From: a bacterium
GTDB lineage: Bacteria > Armatimonadota > UBA5829
Reading direction: 5' to 3'
Assembly (NCBI GenBank): GCA_021373255.1
Contig: JAJFTD010000072.1
Span: 1 to 36,379, forward strand
DNA length: 36,379 bases
Shown: positions 18,300 through 26,508 of the stretch, one piece after another
How positions within the stretch are numbered: position 1 is the stretch's first letter
Layout: each line of letters opens with the position of its first letter
The notes under the pieces: generated by a model
What the model saw: the letters and a program-made list of their open reading frames with translations, nothing else
What the model was told of the DNA's origin: nothing
The model's database searches: none
Program-made: the position numbers and the translations under genes

Positions 18300-18334
18300 A
18301 AAAAGCCAGGGCGCATTGGAACAGCGTCCTGGCT
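18300..18334 (-). terminator. Intrinsic terminator after flgM
   Basis: On the minus strand AGCCAGG-A-CGC and GCG-C-CCTGGCT form a 10-bp stem with one mismatch and a 9-base loop, followed by TTTT. It lies 22 bases past the flgM stop and isolates flgM from parA. Confidence 0.9.
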
Positions 18335-18355: not shown

Positions 18356-18658
18356 CTACCGTATTCTGTCGGCATTGAGTCGTCTGAGCATCATGTCGGC
18401 GACTTCTTTGCCATTAATCTTGTATTCGCCTTTGCTGATTCGTTCCTTGAGGTCGTTTACCACGTCCTCCCTGATATCAGGAACATCAGCCAATGCTGAT
18501 TCCGCCACAACCATCCCCTGTTCCAGCGGAGAAAGTTGTTTGCTTCCATTAGTCTTGGACGCAACTGATCCCCTGGGCCGGTTCTCTGGCAGTATCCTAC
18601 CTTGAGCGGCACCAGTGCCCATCGACGCTTTACCTGATTCCACGTGAGAGATCTTCAT
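18356..18658 (-). CDS. flgM: Flagellar anti-sigma-28 factor FlgM
   Basis: The 100-residue protein has the FlgM layout: the MKI N-terminus, a disordered Gly/Ser/Lys-rich first half, and a C-terminal sigma-binding half with LSPLEQGMVVAESALADVP, then DIREDVVNDLKERISKGEY, then KINGKEVADMMLRRL. FlgM binds and holds sigma-28 (FliA/SigD) until the flagellar hook is complete, then is usually exported. The ribosome site is GGGGG about 8 bases upstream of the ATG. No other flagellar gene lies in this window, so flgM is on its own transcript, ended by a strong terminator. Its 85-base 5' region is preceded by a canonical c-di-GMP-I riboswitch, so its expression is likely set by c-di-GMP. Confidence 0.88.
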   Translation of the reverse strand: MKISHVESGKASMGTGAAQGRILPENRPRGSVASKTNGSKQLSPLEQGMVVAESALADVPDIREDVVNDLKERISKGEYKINGKEVADMMLRRLNADRIR

Positions 18659-18744
18659 TTTTACATCCCCCTGTATCTTACCTTGCCCCGTGGGTATGCA
18701 TCAATAATAGCGCCAGACACGCAAAAAGGCAAACGCCACGAAGT

Positions 18745-18838
18745 TTGGAAACGGCAACCCAGCCGACTTGTTCCGACCATGCGGAATTTAGTCCTGTAGG
18801 CTTTGCGTCCCCCTCTTTCGAAGAGTTTGCCTTTATCT
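18745..18838 (-). promoter_or_regulatory. c-di-GMP-I (GEMM-I) riboswitch upstream of flgM
   Basis: On the minus strand the leader reads AAAGGCAAAC (18834-18825), TCTTCGAAAGAG (a stem capped by a GNRA-type loop), GGGGACGCAAAGCC, then ACAGGACUAAAUUCC, a second variable hairpin, and GGCTGGGTTGCCG (18762-18750). All the fixed blocks of the GEMM-I aptamer are present in the correct order: GGCAAA, the GAAA tetraloop, GACGCAAAGCC, the CUAA junction and the GGGUUGCCG 3' strand. It lies in the 5' leader of flgM on the same strand, about 90 bases before its start. GEMM-I aptamers bind cyclic di-GMP with very high affinity. Confidence 0.92.
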
Positions 18839-18860
18839 TTGACCTTATTGTCTATACTGA

Positions 18861-18889
18861 TTATTGGCGTGCTCCGGACTTGTCTTTAG
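18861..18889 (-). promoter_or_regulatory. Sigma-28-like promoter for the riboswitch-flgM transcript
   Basis: On the minus strand CTAAA (18889-18885) is followed after 16 bases by GCCAATAA (18868-18861), one mismatch from the flagellar sigma-28 -10 box GCCGATAA. The spacing is one base longer than the usual sigma-28 promoter. The start would fall near 18853, about 15 bases before the aptamer. A sigma-70-type TATAGA just downstream is an alternative. Confidence 0.45.
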
Positions 18890-23073: not shown

Positions 23074-23169
23074 CGGGCAGATCTCTGATCTGGCCCGCAT
23101 TGACCAAGTGGCATCTCTGATGCCATAACGTGTGCTCATGAGTAATAGGTGTGGGATCAGGAGATCCCA
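23074..23169 (+). repeat. Solitary REP cluster (three hairpins)
   Basis: Hairpin A (23074-23097) is identical in its 24 bases to the left REP copy at 4681-4704. Hairpin B (23109-23125) pairs TGGCATC and GATGCCA around TCT. A third hairpin (23152-23169) pairs TGGGATC and GATCCCA around AGGA. There is no transposase here. The unit lies between the FKBP gene and the next gene on the same strand, as REP elements commonly do. Confidence 0.85.
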
Positions 23170-23264
23170 TTTCCCAACCTTATAACCTTATGACTTTCAA
23201 ACCCTATAGCAACACCATTCGTTTAGGCCAATTGAACGGCATTTTAGCTAGGTCAACACTGCGT

Positions 23265-25475
23265 ATGTCAATAAAAACTGTTCTTTTATCTATGCTGGCG
23301 ATTCTGCTTTGTGCTACAGCTCGTGCATCAAGTGCGGACGGGAGGCGAGTGGTCCTTGTCATTGCAGGTGGGACAAGCATCAGAGACATTGCGGACCCTG
23401 ATCTTCCTAATCTTGCCAGGTTGTTGAAAACCGGATCAGCGGCGTTAGCGAATGTGCGTACTGGGCGACCTACTAAGGATATCGAGCCTGTTGAAGCCCC
23501 CGGTATGGAGCCGGGTTGTGTGACGATCGGTGCGGGCGCGCTTGCTATTGGTGGTGTCGAAACGCGCCGAGCGGCAGGTCATGCCTCTGAGTTCGAGGGA
23601 GTGCCGGCAGGGTCAGTTTATACATGCAGGACGGGTCACCTTGCGGACAAAGCCGAAGTGCTTCACATGGAGATCAGCAAGATGCAGCGGGCGAATGTCC
23701 AGGCATCATACCGAGCGGTACCGGGCTTGCTTGGGACAACACTGCATGGGGCTGGTATTCGAACTGCTATTATCGGTAACTCAGACATCCCCGGTTTACC
23801 ACATCGCGAAGCAGTGGCAATTGTTATGGATGCAAATGGGACGGTTGACTTCGGCGACGTGGACTCCAAAGAACTATCTGTGCCGGACCCTCAATCGGCC
23901 TATGGTCTGCGAGCTAACATTCCTGCAATTATGAGCCGGTTTGACCGTGTGTATGATCAGAGCATGTTCATAGTAATAGACTTTGGCGACACTTTGCGAG
24001 CAGATAATTATGCACAGTCCTGCAGTGATGATCAGGCCTTTATCATCAGGCACAGGGCAGCGCGTGGTCTGGATGACCTCATCGGCCGGCTATCAGGAAA
24101 ACTCGACTTTAATAAAGATGTTCTCATTGTTCTGTCTCCGAACCCCCGTTCGTTTAGTGAGATCGATGCCGAGCGAATGGCTCCTATAATCACTTGTGGG
24201 CCTGGGTTTGGCGAGGGTTTGCTTACATCGCCTTCCACGCGTCGTGCTGGGGTTGTCACAATCGCAGATGTCACACCCACTGTGCTTTCCCTTTTTAATG
24301 TAAAACAACCGCTGGAAATGATTGGCCGGCCAATGGCGCGGGTGCCGGGGTACGATGTTGCCGGGCGTTTGCTGGATTTGAATCTTCGAGCAAGCACACA
24401 GGGTCAGAGGCAGGTTGCCATGCGCGGGGCCAGCGTGGTGCAGTCGGTAATGGTTGCTTTGGTGACACTTATCGTGCTGCTGGCGGTTCCGAGATCGATC
24501 AAAACGCTTGCAGCTTGGGGTGCTTTGATCCCTGCCGCACTGCCTATGATAATGCTATACCTGCCACTTATCTATTCAGGTGGCTTGGTTGGCGCGGTGC
24601 TGCTGCTGATTACGCTTACGCTGCTGGTGTTGACAGTATGCAGGCTTGCTTTTGGCTCTCCACAGCGTGCGTTTGTTTGGTTGTGTGTACTCACGGTAGC
24701 CAGCCTTGTGGTTGATCTGCTGCGGGGCGCACCGCTGATCTCGTCCTCAATCGCAGGTTATGGGATTATCGAGGGAGCCAGGTATTATGGCATCGGCAAT
24801 GAGCTTATGGGCACAATGATCGGTGCCGCTCTTGCTGGTATGGGAGTGCTGCTGTCAGGAGGACGAATTCGGGGCTTGGCGGGAACGGTTATCGTGTTGA
24901 TGCTCTCGATAGTGGTGTTTTTCTCTATAGGTGCCCCTGCTCTCGGCGCCAACTTCGGTGGAGCGCTTTCGGCAGCTCCCGCGATGGCTGCGATGGTGCT
25001 GGCGATGCATGGTTGGCGGCCTAATGCTAAGAGTATATTGGTGATTGTGCTGCTCACGGCTCTGGTTGTCGGCGGATTGATGGGTGCGGATGTGTTGCGA
25101 GGGGGGGCTGGACAGTCGCACGTAGGTCGCGCAGCGGAAATGGCGGTGGGTGGTGACGCCGGTGGCCTGCTGGTCGTGGCTGAACGCAAGATCGCACTTA
25201 ATTTTATGCTGGTATCCACCAGCTTGTGGAGTCGGCTTCTTGGGCTGAGCGTGTTGGGTTCGGTGGTGCTCTGCTATTGGTCCCGGCGGCGTGTTGGTGG
25301 AAAGCTGTTATCCAGAGAAGAGACAGCGGCGGCGGCGGCGATATGCATAGGTTCGGTGGCAGCATTCGTTTTTAATGACTCCGGAGTGGTTGCGGCGGCT
25401 ACATGTGCTGTGTTCTTGTGGACGCTGCTTGCTCTGAAAGTTCTTGTAGCTACAATAAAAGAGCCGGAGAGCTGA
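23265..25475 (+). CDS. Alkaline-phosphatase-fold / polytopic membrane protein, family not named
   Basis: The 736-residue protein has a signal peptide (MSIKTVLLSMLAILLCATARA) and an outer domain to about residue 390 that resembles the alkaline-phosphatase/sulfatase fold (VVLVIAGGTSIRDI near the start, MFIVIDFGDTLRADNY, DVLIVLSPNP, GVVTIADVTPTVLSLF). The canonical metal-binding pattern is not clear, so activity is uncertain. The C-terminal half has about nine membrane helices (residues 395-730), with the conserved-looking GYGIIEGARYYGIGNELMG between helices. The start at ATG 23265 is chosen for the signal peptide; the frame extends upstream through a REP hairpin from GTG 23151. The protein sits in the inner membrane with the first domain outside. 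It ends at a strong hairpin. Confidence 0.7.
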   Translation: MSIKTVLLSMLAILLCATARASSADGRRVVLVIAGGTSIRDIADPDLPNLARLLKTGSAALANVRTGRPTKDIEPVEAPGMEPGCVTIGAGALAIGGVETRRAAGHASEFEGVPAGSVYTCRTGHLADKAEVLHMEISKMQRANVQASYRAVPGLLGTTLHGAGIRTAIIGNSDIPGLPHREAVAIVMDANGTVDFGDVDSKELSVPDPQSAYGLRANIPAIMSRFDRVYDQSMFIVIDFGDTLRADNYAQSCSDDQAFIIRHRAARGLDDLIGRLSGKLDFNKDVLIVLSPNPRSFSEIDAERMAPIITCGPGFGEGLLTSPSTRRAGVVTIADVTPTVLSLFNVKQPLEMIGRPMARVPGYDVAGRLLDLNLRASTQGQRQVAMRGASVVQSVMVALVTLIVLLAVPRSIKTLAAWGALIPAALPMIMLYLPLIYSGGLVGAVLLLITLTLLVLTVCRLAFGSPQRAFVWLCVLTVASLVVDLLRGAPLISSSIAGYGIIEGARYYGIGNELMGTMIGAALAGMGVLLSGGRIRGLAGTVIVLMLSIVVFFSIGAPALGANFGGALSAAPAMAAMVLAMHGWRPNAKSILVIVLLTALVVGGLMGADVLRGGAGQSHVGRAAEMAVGGDAGGLLVVAERKIALNFMLVSTSLWSRLLGLSVLGSVVLCYWSRRRVGGKLLSREETAAAAAICIGSVAAFVFNDSGVVAAATCAVFLWTLLALKVLVATIKEPES

Positions 25476-25505: not shown

Positions 25506-26336
25506 TTATTGGTTCATAGTGCTATCGGGCATTGTCTGTATGGGGGCGGGTGTCATCATTGTTGGCGGAGGTGTGGTCGCCGGCACGTTAGTGGATACCG
25601 GAACCTGGTACCTCTCTATGGTCTGCATTCGCTGCTCCTGCGCACTGTCGGAATAGGTGCTCCTGCGCGGGAATGGGAATGTAGACAAGTTGAATGCCCG
25701 TGACGGTGGGACTGCCTGCCGCATAGCCAGTTCGCGCCAGGTTACCCCCCTCTGAATATCCATCAGTGCCATGCTGATCGGATACCCGCTTTCCCGGGAA
25801 ATGTTGGCGGCCACGGCAATGTCCATCCAGTCATAGCCTTGGGCGTAATATCTCTGTACCTCATCCCAAGTAAGTAGCACGTTGCCGTTGTAGTCATACA
25901 TTACCACCGGCATTGCTGGCCCAGCGCCGTATAGTGCCGACTGGGGTACAAAGCAACTGGTGGCAAGGACGTTTGCATCGGACAGAGAGACGTTGAACTG
26001 CTGCGATACACTGCTCCAGTTCGGGTTGCTCCTGTATGCGGCAGCGACCTCACCGACGGGGCGGTTGGACCTTTTTGCTATGGCTCCGATCATTGCAATA
26101 TCCGAGTCGGAAAAGCCCTGTGACCGGAGGTCCGCAATCTGGCTCGTCGAGAGGTTGAGATTGCTCCTCAAGCACGATTCGGAGACCTGCTGCCCAGCCG
26201 GTATCATCACAGGTGGAGAGACGGAGGGTCCGGCTCCCGATGGTGCAACGGTGCTGCCTGTTGGGCAAGGCTCGGCTGCTGTGGCGGCTGCCGCACATGC
26301 GAGAGTGAGTGCGAAAACCAACAATAAGAATCGCAT
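25506..26336 (-). CDS. Secreted protein with an internal duplication (unknown function)
   Basis: The 276-residue protein has a signal peptide (MRFLLLVFALTLACAAAATA, cleavage near AEP). ATG 26336 is the likelier start because GGAGG lies 7 bases upstream; the in-frame ATG two codons earlier is only one base from it. Two similar helical segments are visible: GFSDSDIAMIGAIAKRSNRP (about residue 76 on), followed by SNPNWSSVSQQFNVS, and GYDWMDIAVAANISRESGYP (about residue 167 on), followed by QRGVTWRELAMRQAV. The shared pattern is G-aromatic-x3-DIA, about 20 residues, then W. The tail is Pro/Thr/Met-rich and low complexity. I do not recognise the family. It is probably periplasmic or surface exposed. 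The gene shares a terminator with the convergent membrane protein. Confidence 0.65.
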   Translation of the reverse strand: MRFLLLVFALTLACAAAATAAEPCPTGSTVAPSGAGPSVSPPVMIPAGQQVSESCLRSNLNLSTSQIADLRSQGFSDSDIAMIGAIAKRSNRPVGEVAAAYRSNPNWSSVSQQFNVSLSDANVLATSCFVPQSALYGAGPAMPVVMYDYNGNVLLTWDEVQRYYAQGYDWMDIAVAANISRESGYPISMALMDIQRGVTWRELAMRQAVPPSRAFNLSTFPFPRRSTYSDSAQEQRMQTIERYQVPVSTNVPATTPPPTMMTPAPIQTMPDSTMNQ

Positions 26337-26508
26337 CTTCATGCCTCCTCAGAAAATGGGAAGTGAATCGGGCAGGAGACGAGAGAGAAAGGCTCTCCAC
26401 GCACTGCGTGCCCTCGCCATTGTTACCCAGGGGTGAATATGTGCAAACCTGGTGACCACCTGGCGACAACTGAGGATAGCAAGCGTCCTTAAGATGTCTG
26501 CTTGGTTC

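Follow-up and report, generated by a model that had tools for sequence, protein, structure and literature searches.

Protein effectors and early flagellar operons are the usual routes by which cyclic di-GMP (c-di-GMP) acts on flagella, and in Salmonella one of the promoters of flgM (class 3) is used by sigma-28, the same sigma factor that FlgM inhibits. Several c-di-GMP-I (GEMM-I) riboswitches have been described, among them Bc2, of the cap gene of Bacillus thuringiensis, an ON switch in which the ligand prevents the formation of an intrinsic terminator (PMC4933901). The GEMM-Ib riboswitch of pilM from Geobacter metallireducens is also an ON switch, with mutually exclusive aptamer and terminator and a binding window of about 25 nt (PMC9262584), and Cdi-1-3 (Cd1), of the flgB operon of C. 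difficile, is a c-di-GMP-I OFF switch (PMC6200980). An A at position 20 of the aptamer is the mark of the cGAMP switches, and the A20G change shifts selectivity to c-di-GMP (PMC6456294). The aptamer class, terminator switches of the ON type and the control of flagella by c-di-GMP through riboswitches are already known.

The window (the whole stretch of 36,379 nt that was analysed) contains an aptamer of this class in the leader of flgM, with the following features:

18861-18888, minus strand: putative sigma-28-type promoter TAAA-N16-GCCAATAA, upstream of the aptamer, assigned by consensus
18750-18841, minus strand: c-di-GMP-I (GEMM-I) aptamer (RF01051, 74 bits, E 6.9e-13, full length)
18825-18831, minus strand: aptamer 5' core GGCAAAC, predicted by folding to be the terminator 5' arm in the ligand-free fold
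18736-18743, minus strand: element X (CUUCGUGG), whose UUCG would pair with the P2-loop CGAA in the OFF fold, or which would pair with X' in run-through RNA
18723-18734, minus strand: terminator 3' arm T, GUUUGCC and then UUUUU, complementary to the aptamer 5' core and conserved in five families of the class
18704-18732, minus strand: possible secondary sigma-A promoter TTGCCT-N17-TATTAT inside the platform (bypass), a feature of family f1 leaders
18686-18693, minus strand: element X' (CCACGGGG), predicted to pair with X, near the ribosome site
18664-18672, minus strand: Shine-Dalgarno (SD) region AGGGGGAUG, which precedes the flgM start codon and is purine-rich in relatives
18356-18658, minus strand: flgM, anti-sigma-28 factor of 100 aa (PF04316, TIGR03824)
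18300-18334, minus strand: terminator-like hairpin AGCCAGG...CCUGGCUUUUU, end of the flgM transcript (-18.9 kcal/mol, z -3.74)

An initial annotation had proposed a GEMM-I aptamer directly before flgM, and the Rfam search that it called for bears this out: the RF01051 match (18841-18750, minus strand) scores 74.0 bits, where the gathering threshold is 35 bits, covers model positions 1-87 of 87 without any non-standard pair marked in the alignment, ends 91 bases upstream of the gene and is the only above-threshold Rfam match in the window. All the fixed blocks listed in that annotation are found on the minus strand (GGCAAAC at 18831-18825, CGAAAG, GGGGACGCAAAGCC, CUAA and GGGUUGCCG). In what we take to be the equivalent of Vc2 numbering, G20, A47 and C92 fall at 18831, 18804 and 18754, respectively. 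Position 20 is a G (in AAAGGCAAAC), as in c-di-GMP rather than cGAMP aptamers. The leader is thus confirmed as a member of the c-di-GMP-I class, which it resembles in its full-length match and in the c-di-GMP-selecting G, and it would be expected to bind c-di-GMP; it differs from the described members in having flgM as its target and a predicted terminator built on the aptamer 5' half.

The ORF at 18658-18356 (minus strand) was identified as FlgM by PF04316 (51.5 bits, cut-off 25) and by TIGR03824 (42.0 bits, just above the cut-off of 40.75). Its stop codon is followed by a hairpin with a U tract (18334-18300), so flgM is monocistronic, as had been annotated; the genes that come next on this strand, parA and parB, are not flagellar. 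The interval originally given for the element (18356-18840) covers the aptamer and the gene almost exactly and leaves out the promoter at 18888-18861. As for the partner of FlgM, two loci of the genome score above the TIGR02479 cut-off for FliA (252 and 229 bits). Another FlgM-like protein of this genome, with a weaker match (32.5 bits; G000:C59:38584-38745, L067 and L098), lacks a c-di-GMP-I aptamer. Elsewhere in the window, the ORFs at 23151-25475 (plus strand, 774 aa) and 25506-26342 (minus strand, 278 aa) have no Pfam or NCBIfam match.

The association between aptamer and gene was followed in 61 genomes, sampled from genus to phylum level and spanning 27 families. FlgM was matched at E 1e-3 or better in 39 of them, and in 33 of these flgM has an RF01051 match just upstream, in the same orientation (the places were compared by hand, and G038 was counted at 34 bits, slightly below the cut-off), while G023, G028, G035, G042, G043 and G049, which also bear FlgM, gave no RF01051 match even at E 0.5. 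Because each sampled genome holds only 0-6 aptamers, this linkage is not due to chance, and the pairing of aptamer and gene is conserved in the Armatimonadota. The presence of the aptamer in most of the FlgM-bearing genomes makes the riboswitch on flgM look ancestral in the phylum. A dedicated riboswitch on flgM had been described as unusual, which holds for the open-access literature, where searches yielded no report of such a riboswitch on flgM, or of any c-di-GMP riboswitch in Armatimonadota, but within this phylum it is the rule. The relatives of the window FlgM in named genomes are metagenome-assembled genomes of Armatimonadetes/Armatimonadota, plus a few titled only "bacterium", and a search of FlgM against plasmids gave no match. 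In family f16 (G038 and G051), the flgM leaders carry divergent aptamers (L085:310-393 and L086:435-510; GGCACGA...UCACGCAAAG); the model that fits L086 best is the c-di-GMP-I-UAU variant, at 43 bits, short of its cut-off of 65.9, and UC replaces the usual CC near the 3' end.

The promoter-like box upstream of the aptamer agrees with a TAAA-N15/16-GCCGATAA-like sigma-28 box at 7 of 8 positions of the -10 element, with a spacing of 16; the consensus spacing of sigma-28 in E. coli is 15. Boxes of the form TAAA-N15/16-[G/T/A]CC[G/A]ATAA, or near matches to it, were looked for in 27 leaders, and 21 of them have one at a nearly constant spacing from the aptamer core, some 60-72 bases upstream of it; there is one more match, in L023, at a different distance. 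A related box, TAAA-N16-GTCGATA, lies upstream of 10 of the 29 flagellin genes (0.16 would be expected by shuffling), one of them in the window's own genome, and an exact match was found before a CheW-like gene in two genomes. The box that flgM shares with late flagellar or chemotaxis genes is a related rather than an identical one. A strict scan of G000 for CTAAAG-N14-16-CCGATAAT returned no match, as its flgM box reads CCAATAAT. The relaxed pattern recovers this box, with 6 other matches compared to 7 in the reversed control, and a weight matrix built on the flgM promoters did not score the flagellin upstream regions highly, although the shorter shared core did. These boxes suggest that flgM would be transcribed by sigma-28, which would make it subject to the same self-inhibited sigma factor as the class 3 flgM promoter of Salmonella, where there is no riboswitch.

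The expression platform gives the direction of control, about which the initial annotation had made no statement. The GUUUGCC of the T arm is the exact complement of the GGCAAAC of the aptamer. Across five families of the class, the leaders have in common UUCG-N-GUUUGCC with at least 4 U directly behind it, or close variants of this; the f4 and f5 leaders extend the complementarity to the aptamer to some 14 bases, interrupted by a bulge or a single mismatch. When the RNA was folded up to the U tract, the aptamer core was predicted to pair with the T arm in all 17 class-level leaders (mean probability 0.76-1.0), with P2 opened and a local pairing probability of the T arm of 0.0. When the window leader was folded at increasing transcript lengths, P2 stood at 0.99 with the aptamer just completed (18753) and was lost once 18730-18728 had been made, the terminator reaching 1.0 at 18728, about 26 nt past C92; the fold of 18845-18722 has a z of -3.38. 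Dinucleotide-shuffled platforms exceeded P>0.5 in 308 of 1700 cases (~18%, mean ~0.27), so single leaders are weak evidence for the predicted OFF fold, whose strength comes from the agreement over many, related, leaders. Compensating changes are suggestive in two genomes: in G005, with an altered P2 strand, the native platform pairs this strand at -17.9 kcal/mol, versus -15.6 for the consensus strand, and in G020 the platform has drifted to GGGAGAGUCGGCC+U6 and still pairs with the ACUCUUC of its aptamer. The ligand-free fold is favoured in the window by about -16 kcal/mol, a gap so large that control must be kinetic, and the terminator arms lie ~90 nt apart, a compact hairpin being more usual; all these energies are predicted, with neither ligand nor tertiary contacts in the model. 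The other RF01051 sites of G000 (L001, L003, L004 and L005/L006) showed no GUUUGCC+U platform by eye.

In these models, aptamer and terminator are mutually exclusive and the terminator arm is followed by a U tract, as in an ON-type switch, so ligand binding should raise read-through. We consider, with a probability of roughly 0.7, that the c-di-GMP-I riboswitch is a transcriptional ON switch for flgM, embedded in a feedback loop of sigma-28. Transcription by the sigma-28 holoenzyme would begin just upstream of the aptamer and, in the absence of c-di-GMP, the emerging GUUUGCC and the upstream UUCG would invade the aptamer 5' half (GGCAAACUCUUCGAA), forming a long hairpin followed by UUUUU that would end transcription before flgM. 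Bound c-di-GMP would keep the 5' half within the aptamer, preventing the terminator and allowing flgM transcription. More FlgM would leave more sigma-28 bound and would lower late flagellar expression, including that of flgM itself, and c-di-GMP would in this way set the gain of the sigma-28/FlgM loop. Since the terminator fold excludes the aptamer, c-di-GMP would be an ON signal for flgM and would result in fewer late flagellar genes being expressed. The regulatory logic put forward by the initial annotation, with c-di-GMP acting on the anti-sigma factor through RNA, holds up as a reading of the sequence.

Bc2 shares the predicted ON logic, although its target is an adhesin gene and not a regulator of a sigma factor. 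The ~25-nt window of pilM is close to the distance between C92 and terminator formation found here, whereas pilM senses cGAMP and its terminator takes the 3' strand of the aptamer (with the ligand-pairing C75) instead of the 5' strand. Cd1 and the window leader would have a common outcome, lower flagellar expression at high c-di-GMP; Cd1 gets there by turning early flagellar genes off, and the window leader, as predicted, by turning on the inhibitor of the late ones.

The opposite polarity, an OFF switch by which c-di-GMP would lower FlgM and raise sigma-28 activity, is improbable. The class I riboswitches of C. difficile are uniformly OFF, including one before flgB (PMC6200980), and some leaders allow a weak local hairpin (CAAAC/GUUUG) beside the U tract, but as a terminator this hairpin was ruled out by its pairing probability of 0.0: the T arm is predicted to pair with the aptamer in 17 of 17 leaders, making aptamer and terminator mutually exclusive. 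An OFF switch would also have c-di-GMP favour late flagellar genes, contrary to its usual role. A little less probable is that the aptamer is real and flgM is mostly transcribed from the sigma-A promoter of the platform, the conserved GUUUGCCUUUUU being in part a -35 box and c-di-GMP control being minor. TTGCCT-N17-TATNAT, overlapping the T arm, was found in 5 of the 11 leaders of f1, the family of the window (shuffle frequency ~0.01-0.03 each), and the copy at 18732-18704 may bypass the switch; however, it is absent from all 9 leaders outside f1 (f2-f5), which lack a -10 element and have an equally conserved T arm, so it does not explain the conservation of this arm, whose complementarity to the aptamer, moreover, runs on into X. 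Control of the window clade by SD masking instead of termination is the least probable reading, as the SD-masking folds of L030, L034 and L036 and the partial complementarity between X' and the SD (permutation p 0.034) are outweighed by the strong U tract immediately 3' of the T arm and by a modelled SD accessibility that is alike between states in 17 leaders.

Under the ON-switch reading, X would have a further role in the RNA that has escaped termination. X' is made after the U tract, so the X:X' helix is possible in run-through RNA only, where it would perhaps lock the ON state. Matched species pair at -18.5 kcal/mol versus -14.4 for mismatched ones, none of 20000 permutations being as good, and shuffling X' makes its pairing with X poorer (native X' has a mean z of -2.4, the effect being weak in f3 and f4). 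We propose that the helix stops X and T from re-invading the aptamer. A release of the SD by X:X' pairing was also considered and rejected (accessibility 0.33 vs 0.32 between the modelled states, Wilcoxon p 0.89, 17 leaders), and the models do not support a translational layer in the window-class leaders.

Leaders beyond the class have no U tract. In the minimum-energy folds of L030, L034 and L036, the UUGCC of the aptamer 3' side pairs with GGCAA at the SD, an arrangement that would be ON by translation, and in three leaders of family f8 it is a second CUGCC, lying outside the aptamer, that masks the SD. The evidence tips slightly towards a circuit common to the whole of Armatimonadota, in which the gene for the sigma-28 inhibitor would be transcribed by sigma-28 itself, under a c-di-GMP ON riboswitch, and the messenger would adjust the feedback set-point at the RNA level, by a terminator on the aptamer 5' half in the window clade and by SD masking of the same polarity in the distant families.

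Other GEMM-I aptamers of G000 differ from that of flgM. L003:1501-1590 (G000:C33:21751-21840), upstream of an HD-GYP-like (HD_5) gene, and L004:1501-1624 (G000:C127:4285-4408) have A in place of G at position 20 (AUAGCAAAC), as is characteristic of the cGAMP-sensing GEMM-Ib; this makes 3',3'-cGAMP signalling a possibility in Armatimonadota. L005:1501-1636 and L006 (G000:C2:10212-10424) are tandem GEMM-I matches, the second one partial, upstream of a gene of the BadF/BadG ATPase family.

No study on motility control in Armatimonadota was found in the open-access literature, nor was any riboswitch dedicated to flgM, built on the aptamer 5' half and extended over a phylum; as far as this literature shows, flgM as a target, the platform on the aptamer 5' half and the conservation over the phylum are new. 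The model predicts a clear sign (ON) on one leader RNA, which can be tested in vitro. If it is true, a riboswitch on an anti-sigma factor would couple c-di-GMP directly to the checkpoint that releases the late flagellar genes.
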